Below, piece after piece: positions 29,994 to 38,414 of a stretch of DNA of 64,000 bases (positions are counted from its first letter, which is position 1; every line of letters starts with the position of its first letter). The DNA is from Qipengyuania flava. GTDB lineage: Bacteria > Pseudomonadota > Alphaproteobacteria > Sphingomonadales > Sphingomonadaceae. The DNA is taken from positions 434,001-498,000 of the forward strand of contig NZ_CP080410.1 in the NCBI RefSeq assembly GCF_019448255.1, read 5' to 3'. The position numbers and the translations under genes were made by a program. The notes under the pieces were generated by a model, which saw only the letters and a list, made by a program, of their open reading frames with translations, was not told the DNA's origin and ran no database searches.

Positions 29994-32102
29994 TCAGGCC
30001 TGTTCGGTCAGCACGCCGCCTTCCATCACCAGGATGCGGTCGGCCGCCTCGATCGTTTCCTTGCGGTGCGCGATGATGATGCGGGTGATGCCCATGGCCG
30101 AGATCGCTGCGTTGACGGCGGCCTCGTGCTGCGCGTCGAGATGCGCGGTGCCTTCGTCCATGAACAGGATCTTGGGCTGGCGGTAGAGCGCGCGGGCAAG
30201 CAGCACGCGCTGCTTCTGTCCGCCCGAGAGCGTCGAGCCCATGTCCCCGATCAGCGATTCGTACTGCATCGGCATGCGCATGATGTCCTCGTGGATCGAG
30301 GCGGCGGAGGCGGCCTGGATGACCCGCTGCAGGTCGACCTCTTCGTCGAACAGCGCGATGTTGTCGGCCAGCGAGCCGGCGAACAGGCTGTCTTCCTGCA
30401 GCACGGCGGCGATCTGCCGGTGGAAGCTCTTGTAGCCGAAGCGGTGGAGGGGAATGCCATCGACGATCACATCCCCGCTTTCGGGCTCCACAAGGCCGAG
30501 CAGGATCTTGAGCAGCGTCGACTTGCCGCCGCCCGAAGGACCGGTGATCGCCACGTGCTCGCCCTGCGCGATCGATAGGTTCACGCCCTTCAGGACCATC
30601 GGATCGCTCGGCGAATAGCGATAATGCACATCGCGCAGCTCCATGCGGCCTTCGAGTTCGGTGGTGGCTTCGGGCGCGACGGTGAAGCTGCGGTCTTCCT
30701 CCGACAGGGCGATGTCGGACAGGCGCTCCAGGTGCAGGCCCAGCATCTTGAACTGGATCGCCTGGTCGATCAGCGCGGCCGACTTGGTGATGAACTGGTT
30801 CTTGTAGGCAAGGTAGGCGAAGACCATGCCGACGCTGAAGCCTGCCCCGTCGATGACGAAACCGACGGCGAGATAGATCGTCAGGATGTTCTCGATCCCG
30901 AAGATCAGCAGATTGGCCGTCCCCTGCCAGATGCCGATGCGCGAGAGGCGCACCTGCGAATTGACCGAATCCGTCAGCCGGGTCTGCCACAGCGCATGGC
31001 GCAGCGTTTCGCGCCCGAACAGGCGCAGCGTGACCATGCCGCGCAGCGTTTCGATCAGCGTCGTCTGTTCCTTGCCGCCGGTGATGATGGTGGCTTCCTG
31101 CGCCTCGCGCTGGAAGGAAAAGCTGACGATGCGCGCCGCGCCGTAAAGGGCAAAGGCGACAATCGCGATGAAGGCGAGCAGCGGGCTGTAGTAGAACATT
31201 ACCGCCAGCGTGAAGATGGCCATGACCCCGTCCACCAGCGCTGCGACAGCGCCCTGGGTAAGCAGGTTCTGGATCGGCACGATCGACTGGAAGCGGGAGA
31301 GGATATCGCCCGTGTGGCGCTTCTCGAAATAGTCGATCGGCAGGCGGAACAGCCGCCGCGCGATGTTGGTCGCCAGCGCGTAGCCAACGCTGGTGCCCGC
31401 GTTCAGCAGCACGAAGGACCGCAGCAGGCTGGCAATCACATTGATCAGCGTGAACAGGCCGAAGCCCAGCGCCAGCACCGTCAGCAGGTCGCCGTCCAAG
31501 GCAGGCAGCGCGCTGTCGATCGCGACCTGCATGTAATAGGGCGAAGCAAGCACGAAGGCCTGCAGCACCACGCTCAGCAACAGGATCTGCGCCAGCGCCC
31601 GCTTGAGCCCGGTCATCGCGTTCCACAGCTGCGACAGGCGCAGTTTTTCGCGCAGCGTGGTGCGGTCGAAGTCGCTGCTCGGGCGCAGTTCCAGTGCGAC
31701 GCCGGTGAAGTGGTCGGAGACCTCCTCGAGCGGCATCCAGGTCGAGCGCCCGTCGGGATTGTGGATCAGCGCCTTGCCGGCCTTTACCGCCTCGATCACC
31801 ACATAATGGTTCATGTCCCAGTGGAGCACGGCGGGCATGTGGAGGTTGCCGAGCTCCTCCAGCGGCAGCTTCACCGCGCGCGGCGTAAGGCCGATCTGGT
31901 CCGCAAGGTTGATCAGCGCGCGCAGGGGTGCGCCGCGCATCGAGGGCGAATAGCGCCGCCGCATCGTGCCCAGATCGACATCGAAGCCATGGTAGTTGGC
32001 CACCATGGTCAGGCTGGCGAGGCCGCATTCGGCCACTTCGGTCTGGCGGATCAGCCGCACGCGGCTGCGGGTCAGGAACCCAAGGTCGAGAGCAAGATCC
32101 AT
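29994..32102 (-). CDS. peptidase-containing ABC exporter (C39 bacteriocin exporter)
   Basis: 702 residues from an ATG at 32102, one base after the HlyD stop, with GAGG 7 bases upstream. Residues about 15-140 are a C39 peptidase: Q20-TEVAE-C26-G, H99 in HWDMNHYVV and D117 in HNPD give the Cys-His-Asp set that cleaves after double-Gly leaders. Six membrane helices follow at about 160-450, then an ATPase with Walker A GPSGGGKST, signature LSGGQKQRV, Walker B ILFMDEGTAHLD and a His switch IIAHR. It should trim and export the leader peptides encoded upstream, working with the HlyD adaptor and an outer-membrane TolC not present here. Colicin V-type exporters (CvaB) and Caulobacter CdzA are the relatives. 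Confidence 0.93.
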   Translation of the reverse strand: MDLALDLGFLTRSRVRLIRQTEVAECGLASLTMVANYHGFDVDLGTMRRRYSPSMRGAPLRALINLADQIGLTPRAVKLPLEELGNLHMPAVLHWDMNHYVVIEAVKAGKALIHNPDGRSTWMPLEEVSDHFTGVALELRPSSDFDRTTLREKLRLSQLWNAMTGLKRALAQILLLSVVLQAFVLASPYYMQVAIDSALPALDGDLLTVLALGFGLFTLINVIASLLRSFVLLNAGTSVGYALATNIARRLFRLPIDYFEKRHTGDILSRFQSIVPIQNLLTQGAVAALVDGVMAIFTLAVMFYYSPLLAFIAIVAFALYGAARIVSFSFQREAQEATIITGGKEQTTLIETLRGMVTLRLFGRETLRHALWQTRLTDSVNSQVRLSRIGIWQGTANLLIFGIENILTIYLAVGFVIDGAGFSVGMVFAYLAYKNQFITKSAALIDQAIQFKMLGLHLERLSDIALSEEDRSFTVAPEATTELEGRMELRDVHYRYSPSDPMVLKGVNLSIAQGEHVAITGPSGGGKSTLLKILLGLVEPESGDVIVDGIPLHRFGYKSFHRQIAAVLQEDSLFAGSLADNIALFDEEVDLQRVIQAASAASIHEDIMRMPMQYESLIGDMGSTLSGGQKQRVLLARALYRQPKILFMDEGTAHLDAQHEAAVNAAISAMGITRIIIAHRKETIEAADRILVMEGGVLTEQA

Positions 32103-32103
32103 G

Positions 32104-33336
32104 TCAGCGCCTCTGGACGGCAAAGAGGGGTTCGAAGAGCCATTCGATCAGCGACTGGTCTTCGGTGATGATGCGGGCGGTCAGGCTCATGCCGGGCACC
32201 AGGCGTTCCTCGCGCCCGAAGGCGGTGATCACGCTTGCGTCGAGCTCGACGATGACGGGATAGACCGCGATGACCGCTCCGTTCGGCAGGGCCTGGCTGA
32301 TGGCGCTGCTGGCAACGGTGGTGATGGTGCCCTGCACGGTGCCGAAGCGCTGGTAGGGGAAAGCGTCGATCGCAAGGCGGACTTCCTGGCCCGCTTTCAC
32401 AAAGCCGATTGCCTGGCTCGGTACGCGCAGTTCGGCGCGCAGTTTCGCGCCGTCGGGAATGACCGCCATGACCTGGGTCTGCGGCCCGACCCGCTGGCCG
32501 CTGCGCATGGTGAGAGCGGTGACCCGCCCGGCAATCGGTGCGGTGAGGGCATAGGAGCGCGCGCCTGCGTTCCCCGCAGCCTGCTGGGCAACCTGCGCGC
32601 GCGAGGCGGCGATGTTGGCAGCCTGGCTCTCAGCCTGTGCGGCGATGGTGGCGGCGCTGTTCGACAGTTCGGCCAATTGCGCGCGGCGCGAGGTCAGCGA
32701 CTGGCGGAGCTGGGCAAGCTGCTGCTGGCGCGACACCAGCGTGTCTTCGCGCGCCTGCAGGTTGGCCCGGCTGATAAAGCCGCGCTCGGCCACCCCTTGC
32801 GCCTTGTCGAGATCGCGCTGGGCGGAGGCAACGAGGTTCTCCTGCAGCGCGATCTGCGACTGCAATTGCGAGATTTCGGAGCGGAGGCCGGAAGCCTGCA
32901 CCGCGATCTGGCTTTGCTGCGAGGCGGCGGAGCGCTGCGAGGCGGTGAGCTGGGCGATCAGGCTGGCGTCCTGCTGGGCAATGGCCTGCTCGGTCAGGGC
33001 GGCAGCGGAAAGGCCCGAGGCGCTGTCTTCCTCGGCGCGGATGGCGACGAGTGTGGCGCCGGCCTCGACCTGGTCGCCATCGTCGACGAAGACATCGGTG
33101 ATGGTGCCTGAACGCGTCGGGATGATGGCGGCAACGCCCTTGTCGGGCACGATGGTGCCGGTGACCGTTTCCACCCGGGCGTATGTCGCCAGCGAGAGGA
33201 ACACGATGGCGACCAGCAGCGCGCCGAAGATCAGATACCCGATGACCTGCCAGGGAAGCGGTATCGCGATCGACACCTCGCCCGAGAGGCGATCCTTCTT
33301 CTGGGTCAGTACTTCCGAACGAAACAACGCCGACAT
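32104..33336 (-). CDS. HlyD/CvaA-type membrane fusion protein
   Basis: 410 residues. A short cytoplasmic N-terminus leads to one membrane helix (about 29-52, VIGYLIFGALLVAIVFLSLA), a lipoyl half (GTIVPDKGVAAIIPTRSGTITDVFVDDGDQVEAGATL), a long Gln/Ala-rich coiled coil at about 105-260, and the second lipoyl half with APIAGRVTALTMRSGQRVGPQT. This is the periplasmic adaptor of type I secretion. It is one base from the exporter gene, and the two form the export half of the peptide locus. A 176-bp gap with a hairpin separates it from the nearest peptide gene. Confidence 0.92.
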   Translation of the reverse strand: MSALFRSEVLTQKKDRLSGEVSIAIPLPWQVIGYLIFGALLVAIVFLSLATYARVETVTGTIVPDKGVAAIIPTRSGTITDVFVDDGDQVEAGATLVAIRAEEDSASGLSAAALTEQAIAQQDASLIAQLTASQRSAASQQSQIAVQASGLRSEISQLQSQIALQENLVASAQRDLDKAQGVAERGFISRANLQAREDTLVSRQQQLAQLRQSLTSRRAQLAELSNSAATIAAQAESQAANIAASRAQVAQQAAGNAGARSYALTAPIAGRVTALTMRSGQRVGPQTQVMAVIPDGAKLRAELRVPSQAIGFVKAGQEVRLAIDAFPYQRFGTVQGTITTVASSAISQALPNGAVIAVYPVIVELDASVITAFGREERLVPGMSLTARIITEDQSLIEWLFEPLFAVQRR

Positions 33337-33468
33337 GCGACCAGCGACCCCTTCTTGCCCAAGCGCCCCTTGTAGGCGCTCAGATAGGCAGGGCCAGTCG
33401 CAATGCGGAATAGTGCATGTGGGTTAGGGGAGGGCCACTCGACGTCAGTAAGCAGGCCCAAAGGGGAT

Positions 33469-33497
33469 CCAGGAGGCGGTGCTAAATCGCCTCCTGG
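33469..33497 (-). terminator. attenuator-like hairpin between peptide and exporter genes
   Basis: Perfect 10-bp inverted repeat CCAGGAGGCG / CGCCTCCTGG with a 9-base loop, 16 bp after the stop of the last zipper peptide and about 130 bp before hlyD. No T-run follows on the minus strand, so partial termination or transcript stabilisation is more likely than full termination. It would give more peptide than exporter mRNA. Confidence 0.5.
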
Positions 33498-33512
33498 AGC
33501 CTCTCGGTGGCC

Positions 33513-33716
33513 TTAGAGGCCGAGTTCTTCACCGATCGCGTCGACGGCGTCTTCGATCTCGTCTCCGAGATAGGCGCCTGCAGCAGCACCCGAGAGGGCA
33601 CCGCCCGGGCCGCCAGTGAGGCCGCCAACAACACCACCGACGACACCGCCGACGATCTTGCCGAAAAGGTCGGCGCCCGAAACGGCGTCGATTTCGAATG
33701 CATTGAGGTTTTCCAT
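33513..33716 (-). CDS. glycine-zipper bacteriocin-like precursor A
   Basis: 67 residues from an ATG at 33716 with AAAGGACAG upstream. Leader MENLNAFEIDAVSGA ends in the EI-x-x-V-S-G-A form of a double-Gly site, giving a mature peptide of about 52 residues. From G19 it has eight consecutive GxxxG steps (GKIVG, GGVVG, GGVVG, GGLTG, GGPGG, GALSG, GAAAG, GAYLG), then an acidic tail DEIEDAVDAIGEELGL. This resembles the surface-aggregating, two-peptide Cdz bacteriocin of Caulobacter, whose peptides are also type I-secreted glycine zippers. It pairs with precursor B 55 bp upstream. Confidence 0.85.
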   Translation of the reverse strand: MENLNAFEIDAVSGADLFGKIVGGVVGGVVGGLTGGPGGALSGAAAGAYLGDEIEDAVDAIGEELGL

Positions 33717-33771
33717 GATCTGTCCTTTCTGATGGATCGATCGTGAACCGGAAGGAATTCCGGCCCAGCGA

Positions 33772-33954
33772 TTAGTTGAGGTCGTGCTTCTCGCCGAATT
33801 CGTTGACGGCATCCTGCAGCTGGTCGCCAGCTTCGGCTCCGACGATGGCGCCAACCGGACCGCCGACGACGAAACCAACGGCGGCTCCGACAATGCGTCC
33901 AAAGGTGTCTGCGCCGCTGACGGCTTCGATTTCATTGGGATTGAGAATTTTCAT
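33772..33954 (-). CDS. glycine-zipper bacteriocin-like precursor B
   Basis: 60 residues from an ATG at 33954 with AAGGAG about 8 bases upstream. The leader MKILNPNEIEAVSGA closely matches that of precursor A. The mature part starts DTFGRIVG and has six consecutive GxxxG steps (GRIVG, GAAVG, GFVVG, GGPVG, GAIVG, GAEAG), then a polar tail DQLQDAVNEFGEKHDLN. Mature starts (D-x-FG-[KR]-IVG) and tails (D..xDAV...GE) are shared with A, so the two are paralogues that may act as a two-component bacteriocin. Confidence 0.85.
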   Translation of the reverse strand: MKILNPNEIEAVSGADTFGRIVGAAVGFVVGGPVGAIVGAEAGDQLQDAVNEFGEKHDLN

Positions 33955-34098
33955 TTGCTTGCTCCTTCTTCCTGCCGGGCGGGTTCCGGCATGACTTTCC
34001 CGCGCCCCGAAGCGCGGTTGCGACCCCGGAAGCTTGTGATCCCGCCGGCACCGCCCGGAAGCGGGCAGGCGGGAGAAACGTGTCGAGCGCGTCGCGGC

Positions 34099-34275
34099 CT
34101 ACTGGCCGTTGAGCGCATCCTCGGCATCGCTGGCGAGCTCGCCGGCGGCCTTCGCGGTTTCGTGGCTGAAACCGGCAGCGCGAGCGGCGAAGTAGCCTGC
34201 GAGATAACCCGCGGTCCCGGCGCCCGAGACGGCGTCGATTTCCCGCGTGTCGATGGTCTTGATGAGCGATTTCAT
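34099..34275 (-). CDS. double-Gly-leader precursor C (Ala/Gly-rich)
   Basis: 58 residues from an ATG at 34275 with AAGGAGACACACG directly upstream, a leader sequence shared with other peptides of the locus. The precursor leader MKSLIKTIDTREIDAVSGA has the same end as those of A and B. The mature peptide, about 39 residues, starts GTAGYLAGYFAARAAG and continues through an Ala-rich helix to DALNGQ; only one or two GxxxG steps are present. It could be a third toxin peptide, an accessory factor or an immunity-linked peptide. Too short for many gene callers. Confidence 0.8.
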   Translation of the reverse strand: MKSLIKTIDTREIDAVSGAGTAGYLAGYFAARAAGFSHETAKAAGELASDAEDALNGQ

Positions 34276-34304
34276 CGTGTGTCTCCTTGGGTCCTGGTTC
34301 GGGC

Positions 34305-34344
34305 CCGGAAGGATGCGGGGTGTTGGGGGCCCGCACCCTTCCGG
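34305..34344 (-). other. stable hairpin upstream of precursor C
   Basis: Stem of 14 pairs with one mismatch: CCGGAAGG-A-TGCGGG against CCCGCA-C-CCTTCCGG around a 10-base loop. On the minus strand it sits about 30 bases before the start codon of precursor C, so it may end the preceding peptide transcript or protect the 5' end of the next one. Confidence 0.45.
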
Positions 34345-34468
34345 TGCCCACGCTTTGCCGCGTCGCCGTCCCTGCCTAGCTTGGACCAGGAGAGGTCGAG
34401 CGCGCCGTCCGAGGAGTGACTCGATCGTCGCTCTTCAATCGGAACGGCCACGCGGCTGCGCATCGGGT

Positions 34469-34633
34469 TCAGCCGAACAAGTTGGCCGAGAATTCGACCT
34501 GCAGCGGGCCGCCGGTTTCGGTCGGGCTCGGCAGCATCGGGCCGGTGCAGCCTTCGCCGTTTTCACCGGCGGTGCGGCCGCCGCTGACAAGGGTGATTTC
34601 GGTTGCGGTGATGTCTTCGATACGATCGGTCAT
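34469..34633 (-). CDS. double-Gly-leader precursor D (single-Cys, Gly/Pro-rich)
   Basis: 54 residues from an ATG at 34633 with GAGGAGACACACA upstream. The 19-residue leader MTDRIEDITATEITLVSGG carries a true Gly-Gly end. The mature peptide, about 35 residues, is RTAGENGEGCTGPMLPSP followed by TETGGPLQVEFSANLFG; it has one Cys, is not hydrophobic enough for a zipper and is unlike A-C. It may be a small microcin, a dimer through its Cys, or a signal. It diverges from the response-regulator gene, and a [C/T]TAG array lies in the shared upstream region. Confidence 0.8.
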   Translation of the reverse strand: MTDRIEDITATEITLVSGGRTAGENGEGCTGPMLPSPTETGGPLQVEFSANLFG

Positions 34634-34721
34634 TGTGTGTCTCCTCTTGAAAACGCGCATCAGCACTGGCTGACGAACCCAAGATCGACGATCGCAAAAA
34701 ATCCTCAATAACACCGGTGAC

Positions 34722-34781
34722 TTAGGAGATTTCGGTTAGGCGCACCGGGCTAGCGAAGGCGGCCTAGCACGATGGGCTTAG
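34722..34781. promoter_or_regulatory. 14-bp-periodic [C/T]TAG operator array 1
   Basis: Five tetramers at exactly 14-bp steps: TTAG 34722, TTAG 34736, CTAG 34750, CTAG 34764, TTAG 34778, each separated by 10 unconserved bases. The array starts 89 bp upstream of the precursor D start and lies about 107-166 bp before the response-regulator start on the other side. Similar arrays precede two other peptide genes. It is best read as tandem binding sites for one DNA-binding protein, most simply the adjacent LuxR-type regulator. Confidence 0.65.
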
Positions 34782-34812
34782 CCCGTTTGGGTGGCCCGCT
34801 TGCGGCGGCTGC

Positions 34813-34830
34813 CTAGTCACCATGTGCTAT
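34813..34830. promoter_or_regulatory. CTAG-N10-CTAT site upstream of the response regulator
   Basis: CTAGTCA-CCA-TGTGCTA. The 17-bp core has the same two 7-base arms as the site at 36206-36222 (CTAGTCA-ATC-TGTGCTA), with only the central three bases differing. It lies about 60 bp before the likely TTG start of the response-regulator gene, suggesting autoregulation. Confidence 0.6.
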
Positions 34831-34887
34831 TGGATAATGCGCCGGTTTCAGGGCATGATGTCCCTAAATTTGCAGGAGTTTCAGACG

Positions 34888-35538
34888 TTGAGAATTCAGC
34901 GCGACAACCAGGCGCCGCGGTCCTCGCGAATGATCGTGGCCGATGACCATCCGATCTTCCGTGACGGGATCTCATCCATCCTCGCCGATCTCGATCCCGA
35001 GATCGCGGTGGAACAGGCCGGGACCTTCGACGAGCTGCTCGACGTGGCGGCGCAGGGGCCCAGCCCTTCGCTCTTCCTGCTCGACCTCAATTTCCCGGGC
35101 ATGGACATTGAAACGGCGGTGCCCAAACTGCGGCGCCAGTACCCGCTTGCATCCATCGTGGTGATTTCCATGGCGGACGACCGCCGGTCGACCGAGCACG
35201 TCATGGCCGCCGGGGTCGACGGGTTCATCAGCAAGGCCGCCACGCAGGAGCAGATCCGCGACGGTATTGCGGCCGTGATCGAGGGCGAGTTCGTCAACGT
35301 CAGCGAAGCGGGCGGGATGGCGATCAGCGCCTCGACCTCGCAGTTCTCCGGTCTGACGCCGCGCCAGCTCGATGTGCTGCGCGGGATCGCCCAGGGCCAT
35401 TCGAACAAGCAGATCGCCAAGGACCTGGGCATTTCGCCTTTTACGGTCCGCATCCATGTCTCGGCGCTGCTGCGCGAACTCAGGGTAGAGACCCGGACTG
35501 CCGCCGCGGCTATGGCAACGAAATACGGGGTCCACTAA
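34888..35538 (+). CDS. LuxR/NarL-family response regulator
   Basis: 216 residues from a TTG at 34888, preferred because AGGAG lies 9 bases upstream; ATG codons further upstream have no ribosome site. The receiver has MIVADDHPIF (acidic pair), the phospho-Asp in LFLLDLNFPGMD, a Ser in VVISMADDR and the Lys in FISKAAT. The C-terminal HTH runs LTPRQLDVLRGIAQGHSNKQIAKDLGISPFTVRIHVSALLRELRV. It sits between divergent peptide genes and close to a hybrid histidine kinase, so it is the obvious activator of the locus. A hairpin terminator overlaps its stop. Confidence 0.92.
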   Translation: MRIQRDNQAPRSSRMIVADDHPIFRDGISSILADLDPEIAVEQAGTFDELLDVAAQGPSPSLFLLDLNFPGMDIETAVPKLRRQYPLASIVVISMADDRRSTEHVMAAGVDGFISKAATQEQIRDGIAAVIEGEFVNVSEAGGMAISASTSQFSGLTPRQLDVLRGIAQGHSNKQIAKDLGISPFTVRIHVSALLRELRVETRTAAAAMATKYGVH

Positions 35539-35551
35539 GGGACCCCGTTTT
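35525..35551 (+). terminator. intrinsic terminator of the response-regulator gene
   Basis: Perfect 9-bp stem ACGGGGTCC / GGACCCCGT with loop ACTAAG, followed by TTT. The stop codon TAA lies in the loop, so transcription ends almost at the end of the coding region. Confidence 0.85.
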
Positions 35552-35573
35552 CCTGCGCACTCTACGCAACGAA

Positions 35574-35597
35574 AAAGGGCCGCTTTCGCGGCCCTTT
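35574..35597 (-). terminator. intrinsic terminator of precursor E
   Basis: Perfect 10-bp stem AAAGGGCCGC / GCGGCCCTTT around TTTC, lying 5 bp after the precursor E stop. On the minus strand it is followed by TTTTTCG. It can also back up termination of the response-regulator transcript from the other side. Confidence 0.85.
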
Positions 35598-35601
35598 GCT
35601 C

Positions 35602-35739
35602 TTACCCCTCGGGAATTTCGCTCGGCTCTGTTCCCGGCTTCCAGTCGTCTCCGAAAAGCCAGCGCCAGAAGGTCGTGCCACCGGCGACCTGGTCGATCTC
35701 GATAGCGTCAAGCGAACGCATTTCCTGCGTGGTGTTCAT
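35602..35739 (-). CDS. double-Gly-leader precursor E (short Trp-rich peptide)
   Basis: 45 residues from an ATG at 35739 with GACAGGAGACACACA upstream. The leader MNTTQEMRSLDAIEIDQVAGG is 21 residues and ends Gly-Gly. The mature peptide is only 24 residues, TTFWRWLFGDDWKPGTEPSE plus IPEG, aromatic at the front and acidic at the end. The F-x-x-W-x-FG core and Pro/Glu-rich tail are shared with precursor F. Size, composition and position between regulator and sensor genes would suit a secreted signalling peptide, but a microcin is equally possible. It has its own array, 5' hairpin and terminator. Confidence 0.8.
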   Translation of the reverse strand: MNTTQEMRSLDAIEIDQVAGGTTFWRWLFGDDWKPGTEPSEIPEG

Positions 35740-35746
35740 TGTGTGT

Positions 35747-35789
35747 CTCCTGTCCAAGCAATCGGCGGCATTGGCGCCGTCGACAGGAG
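35747..35789 (-). promoter_or_regulatory. 5'-UTR hairpin masking the precursor E ribosome site
   Basis: On the mRNA, CUCCUGUC (35789-35782) is exactly complementary to GACAGGAG (35754-35747), the Shine-Dalgarno region of precursor E, and an inner CGGCG/CGCCG pairing extends the stem. The fold would hide the ribosome site, so translation may be held low until the structure is opened. Confidence 0.5.
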
Positions 35790-35833
35790 GCATAGTGCGG
35801 GGGTGGAGGGGGCCTTTCACTTGGTCGGGTGGC

Positions 35834-35865
35834 CTAGGCTGCCCGGCCTAGGCGCAAGCGACTAG
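35834..35865. promoter_or_regulatory. 14-bp-periodic CTAG operator array 2
   Basis: Three CTAG tetramers at 35834, 35848 and 35862, exactly 14 bp apart, with weaker matches one step outside on each side (CTTG 35820, CAAG 35876). The nearest is 95 bp upstream of the precursor E start, nearly the same distance as array 1 from precursor D. Confidence 0.65.
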
Positions 35866-35915
35866 TGCACTTGCACAAGGGTGAGGGACGTCCTGCTGGG
35901 CTTGTCGCAAGCACG

Positions 35916-35943
35916 AAAAAGGGGCTGCCTTGGCAACCCCTTT
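35916..35943 (-). terminator. intrinsic terminator of precursor F
   Basis: Read on the minus strand, AAAGGGGTTGCC pairs with GGCAGCCCCTTT (one G-T pair) around AA and is followed by TTTTT minus one or two overlapping bases and CGTGC. It lies about 32 bp after the precursor F stop, separating F from precursor E and making each a single-gene unit. Confidence 0.75.
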
Positions 35944-35974
35944 CCCTCTTCCGCGACCCGGAGTGTCTGTGCGC

Positions 35975-36124
35975 CTACTCGGGCGGTTCATCGCCGGTTT
36001 CCCAAGGCGGCTTGCCAAACGGCCACCAGTCGAAAATGCCGATGGCGGGCGGCAGGTCCGTGCCGCCTGTTACGCGTTCGATCTCGCTCCCGTTCAGCGG
36101 CTGGATTTTGTCCAGTTCTTGCAT
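35975..36124 (-). CDS. double-Gly-leader precursor F (short Trp/Pro-rich peptide)
   Basis: 49 residues from an ATG at 36124 with GACAGGAGACCGACA upstream, almost the same untranslated end as precursor E. The leader MQELDKIQPLNGSEIERVTGG ends Gly-Gly. The mature peptide is 28 residues, TDLPPAIGIFDWWPFGKPP then WETGDEPPE, with three Trp, six Pro and an acidic tail. It is a diverged copy of precursor E. It lies directly downstream of the hybrid kinase gene (109 bp) on the same strand. Role unknown: signal peptide or microcin. Confidence 0.8.
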   Translation of the reverse strand: MQELDKIQPLNGSEIERVTGGTDLPPAIGIFDWWPFGKPPWETGDEPPE

Positions 36125-36143
36125 TGTCGGTCTCCTGTCCAAG

Positions 36144-36175
36144 CCTTGCCGGTCCGACTCGCCGCACCGGCAAGG
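36144..36175 (-). other. 5'-UTR hairpin of precursor F
   Basis: Perfect 10-bp inverted repeat CCTTGCCGGT / ACCGGCAAGG around a 12-base loop, about 20 bases before the precursor F start. It leaves the ribosome site free, unlike the precursor E leader, and may stabilise the mRNA or terminate read-through from the kinase gene. Confidence 0.5.
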
Positions 36176-36205
36176 CAATCATGCAAAGGGGATTGGACGC
36201 TTGCA

Positions 36206-36223
36206 CTAGTCAATCTGTGCTAG
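36206..36223. promoter_or_regulatory. CTAG-N10-CTAG operator 3
   Basis: CTAG at 36206 and 36220, 14 bp apart. The core CTAGTCA-ATC-TGTGCTA repeats both arms of the site upstream of the response regulator. It is 82 bp upstream of the precursor F start and just after the kinase stop codon. Confidence 0.65.
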
Positions 36224-36233
36224 CGCCCGGAAA

Positions 36234-38414
36234 TCAGCCTTGCCGTGCTGCCATCAAGGCAGACCGCAGCTCGGCTGCGCGCAGCGGCTTGGCGAGGATC
36301 AAGCCCGAGTGGGACGCGATCGTCTCGCGAATCTGCGCAGGGTGGTGTCCGGAGATGATGATGATCTGCGTTCCCGTTTCCTCGGCCTGCAACACGAGAT
36401 CATGCCTCCCGGCGAGCGTGCTGCCGCCGCCGAAATCGTAGTCGCTCAGCAGGATGTCGCAGTCGGGTAGGTCTTCGGGCAGCTGCGCGAAGGTCTGCAC
36501 GGTGCAGCCCCACTGCTCGAGCAGCCCGCGGGTCGAGGCGAGCGTTTCCTCGTCGTCATCGGCCAGCGCGACGCGCAGCCCCGACAAGGGCAGCGGGCGA
36601 TCGGCGTTGGCGGCGGCCTTGGCATCTTCCTGTTCGACGACTTCCAGCCCCTCGATCGTGGCGACGGTGCCGCGGCCTTCCTCCGAGCGCAGCGTCAGCT
36701 TGACGTGGAGCATGTCCGCCAGCCGGTTGACGATCGCCAAGCCCAGGCCCTTGTTCTCCGAACTGAGCGTCGACTTGCGCGACGAGCGGAAGAACTCCTT
36801 CTTCACATGCTCCATGTCGCTCGAAGAGATGCCACGTCCGTTGTCGACCACATAGATCGCAAGCCGGCCGGCTTTCATCCGGCACCCGACCAGGACGCCC
36901 TTGCCCGGCGAATACTTGATCGCGTTCGAAACGAGGTTCTGGATCATCGTGCCGATCAGCGCCGGATCGGTGCGTACCATGAGATCGCAGGGCACGAGCC
37001 TCAGGTCGACATTCGCCTGCTCGGCCGACAGTGCGTTCTGGCTATCGATGCCTGCGAGAAGTTCGTTCATCGCCACGGGCCGGATGTCGGTTTGCAGGGT
37101 CCCGCTCTCGATCGCAGCGATATCGAGCAGCGCGCGGAACATCCGGCTGGCGTTGTCGACCGACCAGGAGATTTTCGAGACGAGCTTGGCCTGATCGTCG
37201 CTGAGGTCGGTTTGCGACAGCCGTTCGGCCAGCAGACCGATGGCGTGGATCGGCTGGCGCAGGTCGTGACTGGCCTGCGCCAGGAAGCGCGACTTGGTTT
37301 CCGCCGCGCTGCGGTAGGTCCGCACCGCGCCTTGCCCGCGCTGCCACAGTTTGGCGATGGCGAGGATCAGCAGCAGGAACAGCCCGTGCGAGGTCTGCAC
37401 GAATATCAAGTGCTGCTCGAAGACGATCGGGCTGAGCGCGATGCCGACGAAAGCGACCCCGGCCACGATCCGCCCATAGGGCCGGGGCAAATACATCCAG
37501 GCGAGCCCTGCAAGTACGGCAATGAGGAAGGTGGGCACCCAGCCCAGGACCCGGGGCGGCCCCCTGATCAGGGTCTCGGCAGCCATGACCCAGACCGCCG
37601 CCTTCTCGGTGTAGGTGTCGTTCGGCGTGTCGCGCGTGTCGCGGCCCAGAGTGCTCGTGAAGCTGACGATGACCGGCCGGTTCTCGAACACGCTCGTATC
37701 GAAATCTTCCGCGAGCACTTCTGCCGCGCTGACGCTGGGGATGGTGCCGGGCCTGTAGCTCAGATCGACGTTGATGACGTTGCGCTCGGCACCCCTGGTC
37801 CCGCCGGCAAGGATGGTGGCGAAGGACGGAACGGGGCCGCCGTCCTGCTCCACCGCGAGGGGAACGAAGATCGGCGCGCCGAAGGCATAGGACCGCATGG
37901 TCGCAACAGCCGGCCGGACACGATTGGCGAGCGCTGGGTCGAGGGCGGCCGAGGAATCAACAAAGCTGTCCGCGTCCATCGCCGGGGCGCTTTCCGACAG
38001 GCTGCCGGCGGCTTCGGGCGACAGCTCGACATGCCAGTAGGGCCGCTCGGGTAGCGCTTCGAGCGCCGCCGAAAGCTCGGCAAGGCTGCTAGAATCCTCG
38101 TCCTGGAAATACTGCTGGTCGACCAGGATGACCTCGGGCTCGCTCTGACCCAGCTTGGTCAATAGGGCTGCAAGCTCGCTGCGGGTCCAGCTGCGCGAAG
38201 GCAGGTTGCGTTCTGTTTCCTCATCGATCGCAACGATGATGGCGTTGCCCTCGTAATCCTTGGCGTTGATCGCCGCGGTGACCGAGCTTTGCAGCCAGTC
38301 GTAGGGTTCGAAGGGTTCGATTACCGCGATGAAGGCGGCCAGCAGCGCGAACAGCGCAAGTTCGCGGCGAGAAGGTTTCCTCAATCGCGATTGTCTGGTG
38401 ACGAGGCGGTTCAT
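36234..38414 (-). CDS. CHASE2-domain hybrid sensor histidine kinase
   Basis: 726 residues. One membrane helix at about 18-36 is followed by a large periplasmic CHASE2 domain to about 280 (IIVAIDEETERNLPSRSWTRSELAALLTKL, VILVDQQY), then two or three more helices to about 360. The kinase core has the H box FLAQASHDLRQPIHAIGLLAERL near 384, N box NLVSNAIKYSP, G1 VVDNGRGIS and G2 NKGLGLAIV. A C-terminal receiver (VALADDDEET, D near 655 in LLSDYDF, K in LAKPLR) makes it a hybrid. It probably senses an extracytoplasmic cue, possibly an exported peptide, and controls the LuxR-type regulator nearby. Confidence 0.9.
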   Translation of the reverse strand: MNRLVTRQSRLRKPSRRELALFALLAAFIAVIEPFEPYDWLQSSVTAAINAKDYEGNAIIVAIDEETERNLPSRSWTRSELAALLTKLGQSEPEVILVDQQYFQDEDSSSLAELSAALEALPERPYWHVELSPEAAGSLSESAPAMDADSFVDSSAALDPALANRVRPAVATMRSYAFGAPIFVPLAVEQDGGPVPSFATILAGGTRGAERNVINVDLSYRPGTIPSVSAAEVLAEDFDTSVFENRPVIVSFTSTLGRDTRDTPNDTYTEKAAVWVMAAETLIRGPPRVLGWVPTFLIAVLAGLAWMYLPRPYGRIVAGVAFVGIALSPIVFEQHLIFVQTSHGLFLLLILAIAKLWQRGQGAVRTYRSAAETKSRFLAQASHDLRQPIHAIGLLAERLSQTDLSDDQAKLVSKISWSVDNASRMFRALLDIAAIESGTLQTDIRPVAMNELLAGIDSQNALSAEQANVDLRLVPCDLMVRTDPALIGTMIQNLVSNAIKYSPGKGVLVGCRMKAGRLAIYVVDNGRGISSSDMEHVKKEFFRSSRKSTLSSENKGLGLAIVNRLADMLHVKLTLRSEEGRGTVATIEGLEVVEQEDAKAAANADRPLPLSGLRVALADDDEETLASTRGLLEQWGCTVQTFAQLPEDLPDCDILLSDYDFGGGSTLAGRHDLVLQAEETGTQIIIISGHHPAQIRETIASHSGLILAKPLRAAELRSALMAARQG

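Follow-up and report, generated by a model that had tools for sequence, protein, structure and literature searches.

We analyzed a 64,000-nucleotide stretch of the complete, single-contig, 2.85-Mb genome of Qipengyuania flava (NZ_CP080410.1, positions 434,001 to 498,000; "the window" below). Window positions 29994 to 38414 carry a C39-peptidase ABC exporter, a HlyD adaptor, a LuxR-type response regulator, a CHASE2 histidine kinase, and six short precursors with double-glycine (DG) leaders, numbered p1 to p6 by coordinate; all of these had been named in a previous sequence-only reading, and profile and frame searches confirmed them. Judging from gene content and operator placement, this locus is very probably the hub that controls a chromosomally dispersed DG-peptide regulon and exports its products. 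The previous reading had described one exporter serving several peptides under two-component control; these elements are indicated here as well, but the layout was too narrow, as the locus appears to be a hub to which three unlinked DG operons belong.

A tandem operator, CTAG-N10-CTAG (a 14-bp period), precedes three precursor units at the locus, and a one-mismatch copy precedes the regulator gene. The genome contains 10 such sites, four of which fall within 1.5 kb at the locus (window 34750-36223). Three of the remaining sites precede unlinked DG-peptide operons, at genome positions 423404 (minus strand), 1071732, and 2134643, and no DG operon was found at three other remote sites. The control spacings N7, N8, and N9 together gave seven sites in the genome and none in the window. 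Across eight distinct loci with both regulator and kinase, CTAG pairs lay 14 bp apart 18 times, 28 bp nine times, 42 bp six times, and 56 bp three times, with any other distance up to 60 bp occurring at most twice. A third, degenerate box (C[TG]AT-like) often comes next at the same period; of 24 distances measured from its end to the following start codon, 16 are 54 to 73 bp (full range 54 to 162). That the precursor units have this operator in common points to two-component control, and the copy ahead of the regulator gene suggests autoregulation. A CTAG-N10-CTAT copy also stands ahead of the kinase in four loci of the L041 type (L numbers denote loci and G numbers genomes).

Among exporter loci, the operator follows the regulator and kinase. 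We compared 57 exporter loci (at least 40% identity, window included), of which 12 contain both genes (the window, L041, L042, L045, L046, L055, L058, L068, L082, L083, L084, and L085); the other 45, a few of them short contig ends, lack the pair. Upstream of the exporter, in stretches of at most 7 kb per locus, the box occurred at 21 sites in 84 kb where the pair was present (9 of 12 loci), against one site in 299.6 kb where it was not (1 of 45 loci). DG precursors recur around orthologous exporters that have the pair, with one to seven of them linked to each of the 12 loci. The exporter itself is more widespread: it was matched in 42 of 397 family genomes at E ≤ 1e-100 and in 10 of 60 genus genomes at E ≤ 1e-60. 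Matches to the kinase sensor at E ≤ 1e-35 were confined to seven of the 397 family genomes, and every one lay less than 6 kb from the exporter; those that followed had an E of 3e-20 and 24 to 30% identity, except two short matches at 34 to 35%.

We then asked what lies behind boxes far from the exporter and applied one rule to every remote N10 cluster of eight genomes (38 in all) and, as controls, to 40 of the 83 N7-9 sites that these genomes contain. A DG precursor 20 to 250 bp downstream was found at 9 of 38 clusters and at none of the 40 controls (Fisher p = 0.0009), in a comparison that was controlled and not blind, because the rule was settled after 20 N10 loci had been viewed. Reading by eye added two sites in L126; three loci (L118, L125, and L133) where a Cys-rich gene comes first and is followed by a DG frame with a 42- to 44-residue leader; and two (L193 and L199) where the Cys-rich gene and the beginning of a DG frame are visible and the glycines are not. 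By rule and eye together, 16 of the 38 remote clusters lead to a DG operon. Outside the hubs of six genomes there are nine exact three-box sites, seven of which point at a DG operon; the other two point away from a box pair whose opposite side faces one. The Q. flava genome thus encodes nine or more DG peptides, which make up some seven kinds, and its only Peptidase_C39 match at E ≤ 0.001 is the exporter of the hub, which would therefore serve at least nine peptides.

The recurring Cys-rich gene and DG peptide form a pair found in six of the seven genomes with the kinase. In one unlinked operon (L243 8605-9343, about 422604-423342 of G000:C1), the Cys-rich protein is accompanied by a DG peptide whose leader, at 44 residues, is unusually long. 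At E < 1e-60, the Cys-rich gene was found in six of the 397 family genomes, all among the seven that have exporter and kinase. The unlinked peptide family A2 (RFPGG-type cores) was matched at E ≤ 0.01 in 6 of the 60 genus genomes: the five with an exporter at least 85% identical, plus G046, whose exporter survives only as fragments with stops. In G046, the open A2 frame keeps its core and shows no DG leader, and the Cys-rich frame changes near its end. In G085, none of the matches to the exporter query (best 25% identity) extends into its C39 part; the Cys-rich gene there is truncated, and no DG frame was found after it. Both genomes (sites G046:C99:115288-116150 and G046:C72:6875, and L303 of G085) fit a loss of, or damage to, the remote genes alongside exporter loss.

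A box profile, R1, was built from 24 boxes and searched against six genomes at E ≤ 10. It gave six hits in the Q. flava genome, each of them a training-set site at the hub or at one of the three remote operons, and none in G003, G008, and G030, which are without an exporter match. G085 and G046, neither in the training set, gave one hit each, both ahead of the damaged Cys-rich gene. That these two genomes retain a box without an intact exporter would fit a view in which the CTAG boxes belong to another transcription factor and the regulator and kinase are mere neighbors. We regard this as very improbable, given that the box follows the presence of the regulator and kinase among exporter loci, that a copy precedes the regulator itself, and that the profile found nothing in the three genomes lacking the exporter.

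Several observations weigh against a hub with a distributed regulon, in addition to the unblinded rule noted above. No DG operon was obtained at 22 of the 38 remote clusters, and three of the 12 loci with regulator and kinase (L046, L082, and L084) contain no exact CTAG-N10-CTAG. R1 fails to recover the p4 and regulator promoters at E ≤ 10 though both were in training, and its G046 hit is a near-copy of a training sequence from G024, which makes the G085 hit the more independent of the two. G082, one of the seven genomes with the kinase, is without the Cys-rich gene; weaker homologues of that gene occur in six genomes outside the set; and in G046, the DG frame after the Cys-rich gene stays open despite the broken exporter. 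The locus counts are not independent, because the regulator and kinase rows need two changes on a tree of 47 exporters (one or two origins) and because the 12 loci include near copies (L041, L042, L058, and L084; L068 and L085). Finally, the unlinked precursors were found solely through their boxes, so that further ones may be missed and nine is a lower bound.

A strict leader test, which asked for E[ILVM]xxV[SAT]G[GA] no more than 34 residues from an ATG that has a ribosome-site-like pentamer, returned exactly the six frames of the sequence-only reading between 29994 and 38414. The other 55.6 kb of the window gave no such frame, and neither did 200 dinucleotide-shuffled versions of the locus. 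The six precursors fall into four sequence groups, p1/p2, p5/p6, p3, and p4, which agrees with the expected minimum of four unrelated mature peptides; p5 and p6 have in common only a Trp-rich acidic character, and p3 and p4 stand apart. By eye, p4 looks like CT-containing peptides of L045, L046, L068, L083, and L085. A failure of the precursors to be conserved as frames in relatives had been named beforehand as grounds for rejecting the proposal, and they proved to be conserved: the ratio of nonsynonymous to synonymous substitution rates (dN/dS) was 0.05 to 0.34 for the kinase-linked peptide (six pairs from four close loci) and 0.12 to 0.19 for A2 peptides over five pairs, a sixth pair being undefined. 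All nine mature peptides of the Q. flava genome are acidic, with charges of -3.1 to -9.2; several of them have Pro/Trp-rich sequences, and some show good conservation from one genome to another. Among the relatives, L082 and L083 have DG precursors with Pro-rich repeat mature parts (PDPFPF-like), and in L069 (Aquimonas voraii), where the exporter is a distant one with no regulator and kinase pair, the DG peptides around it are Trp/Pro-rich.

As to function, interbacterial competition is probably the likeliest use of the glycine-rich peptides. Extended to the whole system, this becomes the view that the peptides are weapons, either class II microcins or Cdz-like contact-dependent bacteriocins, and that the two-component system senses an environmental cue (starvation or envelope stress) and no peptide; we give it a little less than an even chance. 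The paralogous glycine-zipper peptides p1 and p2, with their weak MccV similarity, suit it, as does the Cdz system of Caulobacter, which in the accessible part of its description (PMC5380434) is a type I system for two peptides, one of them the glycine-zipper peptide CdzC; its cluster lacks TolC, and it is induced in stationary phase. By eye, the glycine-rich peptides also appear to be the most changeable between loci, and in L082 and L083, small hydrophobic frames of 56 and 68 residues, about 1.4 to 1.6 kb upstream of the exporter, lie by such peptides and are possible immunity proteins. In the window, by contrast, no immunity-like (small hydrophobic) frame was seen by eye adjoining p1 to p3, and the acidity of all nine peptides, the Pro/Trp richness of several, and the conservation of some do not favor weapons. 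These same compositions, together with the repeats in L082 and L083, would suit peptides with a structural or decorating role at the cell surface, or with a metal-binding one, being neither toxins nor signals. The co-regulated Cys-rich protein, with eight invariant Cys in three relatives, also agrees with such a role, but its predicted fold was unusable (mean predicted local distance difference test score 39.7) and it matched no Pfam or NCBIfam family above cut-off; we consider this option unlikely.

The Trp-rich peptide encoded next to the kinase raises the question of a signal. Tentatively, and by analogy with Gram-positive three-component systems, p6 and perhaps p5 could be autoinducers, exported by the C39 exporter and sensed by the CHASE2 domain in a positive loop, with the other peptides as regulated output. 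The system would then possibly be a Gram-negative peptide quorum-sensing regulon, a proposal we hold with the same reserve: a Trp-rich, C39-exported DG peptide would be the ligand of the CHASE2 kinase, and the LuxR-type regulator would act through 14-bp CTAG arrays to switch on chromosome-wide peptides that share one exporter. A DG peptide with at least two Trp in at most 45 mature residues occurs in all 12 loci with regulator and kinase, always between the two genes, and in 1 of the 45 others (L069). Conserved together in this way (with one or two origins), a small DG peptide, kinase, and regulator resemble a three-component DG-pheromone system of the ComCDE/Blp type, and CTAG arrays are in place before the peptide operons, with the regulator as their putative binder. 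Trp makes up 9.0% of the kinase-linked peptide class and 0.8% of the four large proteins. In L041, L042, L058, and L084, no linked peptide other than the Trp-rich one was found, and the genome of the last of these loci, G024, carries additional DG peptides away from the locus that are preceded by the same box. The box copies ahead of the regulator, and ahead of the kinase in the L041-type loci, would fit a positive loop. The purifying selection on the kinase-linked frames would suit a kinase ligand, but it would equally fit a conserved effector. On the other side, a peptide of 23 to 35 residues would have to reach the receiver's periplasm, and no uptake gene was seen at the locus; the independent lineages are few; and L069 has Trp-rich DG peptides without such a kinase. 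The CHASE2 sensors, moreover, diverge no faster than those of 23 other CHASE2 kinases (29.7% against 31.4% shared at 50 to 60% kinase identity). Since these controls give the same ratio, we rejected sensor hypervariability as a sign of co-evolution with a ligand.

Returning to the hub and its distributed regulon, we established directly the genes, the frames, the operator and its placement, and the co-occurrence with the exporter; from these we infer the binding of the boxes by the regulator, the phosphorelay, the cleavage, the export, and the functions of the peptides. In the proposed mechanism, the CHASE2 kinase would sense a periplasmic cue and signal to the LuxR-type regulator, which would bind the tandem CTAG boxes, at their 14-bp spacing, just upstream of the promoter. 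The regulator would thereby activate its own gene, the hub's precursor units, and three or more unlinked precursor operons. Together with HlyD, and presumably with a TolC encoded elsewhere, the single C39 exporter would then cut after the double glycine and export the mature peptide. The arrangement suggests a coordinated, possibly self-signalling peptide arsenal.

The features of the locus are listed in Table 1. In the exporter, Q20, C26, H99, D117, Walker A, and LSGGQ were found by motif, and we take the first four to have the roles familiar in C39 peptidases. With C39, ABC membrane domain, and ATPase in a single chain, together with these Q/C/H/D residues, it is a peptidase-containing ABC transporter whose catalysis is predicted. 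The HlyD adaptor is also close to the exporter in most of the relatives inspected, and the closest type to the C-terminal half of the kinase is NahK/ErcS, below cut-off. The regulator probably starts at TTG 34888 rather than ATG 34822, because similarity begins at residues 17 to 34 in 9 of 11 relatives (at 1 to 2 in L046 and L083), because a block LR[IV]Q at the proposed start is common to many relatives, and because its operator copy overlaps the longer start and lies 57 bp before the TTG.

Table 1. Features of the locus in window coordinates
Feature	Position	Strand	Remarks
C39-peptidase ABC exporter, 702 aa	29994..32102	-	PF03412, PF00664, PF00005 above cut-off; motifs located
HlyD-type periplasmic adaptor, 410 aa	32104..33336	-	PF13437, PF16576 above cut-off
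p1, DG precursor, glycine-zipper mature part, 67 aa	33513..33716	-	PF05433 26.5 bits (cut-off 24.2)
p2, DG precursor, p1 paralogue, 60 aa	33772..33954	-	Mature part 58% identical to p1; PF17508 MccV E 7e-5, below cut-off
p3, DG precursor, 58 aa	34099..34275	-	Family also in L046, L082, L083, with mature parts 32-54% identical to p3
p4, DG precursor, 54 aa	34469..34633	-	First gene in the row heading to the exporter
Operator ahead of p4, CTAG-N10-CTAG-N10-CTAA	34736..34767	-	
Operator copy ahead of the regulator gene, CTTG-N10-CTAG-N10-CTAT	34799..34830	+	One mismatch
LuxR/NarL-type response regulator	34888..35538	+	Probable start TTG; PF00072, PF00196 above cut-off; frame open from 34822
p5, DG precursor, short, Trp-rich, acidic, 45 aa	35602..35739	-	Between kinase and regulator
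Operator ahead of p5, three CTAG boxes, 14-bp period	35834..35865	-	
p6, DG precursor, short, Trp-rich, acidic, 49 aa	35975..36124	-	Directly 3' of the kinase; candidate signal
Operator ahead of p6, CTAG-N10-CTAG-N10-CAAT	36192..36223	-	
CHASE2 hybrid histidine kinase, 726 aa	36234..38414	-	PF05226, PF00512, PF02518 above cut-off; REC under Pfam cut-off

DG peptides are usually sought beside their exporter. Here, precursor genes at dispersed chromosomal sites are tied by one operator to a single exporter, and of the nine peptides found in this genome, three would therefore escape a neighborhood search. Should the Trp-rich peptide prove to be the kinase ligand, CHASE2 would gain a ligand, and the long-standing proposal that Gram-negative bacteria use DG peptides as signals, reportedly put forward by Dirix in 2004 (a title cited in PMC3262810), would become directly testable. 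Among the matches listed from the open-licence literature (titles and abstract beginnings), no such regulon is described, and none joins a double-glycine leader with CHASE2, double-glycine with an Erythrobacter bacteriocin, or class II microcin mining with Sphingomonas.

Some assignments to known families were tried and set aside. The best NCBIfam hit of the exporter, the NHLM/NHLP model TIGR03796, scored 465.9 bits, far under its cut-off of 853.3, and the six precursors hit no NHLP family at E ≤ 1. As MccV, p2 and p1 scored 23.7 and 16.3 bits, below the cut-off of 27. An Azoarcus system considered as a parallel offers, in the accessible part of its source (PMC3262810), a weak C39 candidate only.

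Class II microcins such as colicin V have a DG leader and a C39 exporter with an adaptor. The hub is like them in both respects, and p1, p2, and the TIGEY peptide encoded at an unlinked site weakly resemble MccV (PF17508); the system is unlike them in its acidic, Trp/Pro-rich members, its chromosome-wide operator, and the lack of a visible immunity-like frame by p1 to p3. Caulobacter CdzABCDI is also an alphaproteobacterial type I exporter and adaptor with a glycine-zipper peptide and no TolC in the cluster (PMC5380434). The hub has the p1/p2 pair, an exporter, and an adaptor, p1 and p2 being like CdzC, as described, in general character, and no immunity gene was seen at the locus, whereas the Cdz cluster unites both of its peptides with an immunity gene; the main text of that paper is without the word two-component, and its accessible passages mention no unlinked peptides. 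The claim of the sequence-only reading that this layout is richer than known systems was overstated, as Gram-positives are known to have DG systems in which one two-component pair governs many peptides. By analogy, the nearest working analogue is the pneumococcal ComAB/BlpAB-ComDE network, in which, according to the accessible sections of its source (PMC7595303), ComAB and BlpAB export several DG peptides whose expression ComDE induces. Common to both would be the C39 export of several DG peptides from different loci, co-induced through a kinase and regulator pair; there, a DG peptide is the kinase ligand, and here, the Trp-rich peptide is a candidate signal. Unlike that Gram-positive network with more than one exporter, the Q. 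flava system combines one C39 exporter and HlyD with a CHASE2 sensor, a LuxR-type regulator, and a different operator.
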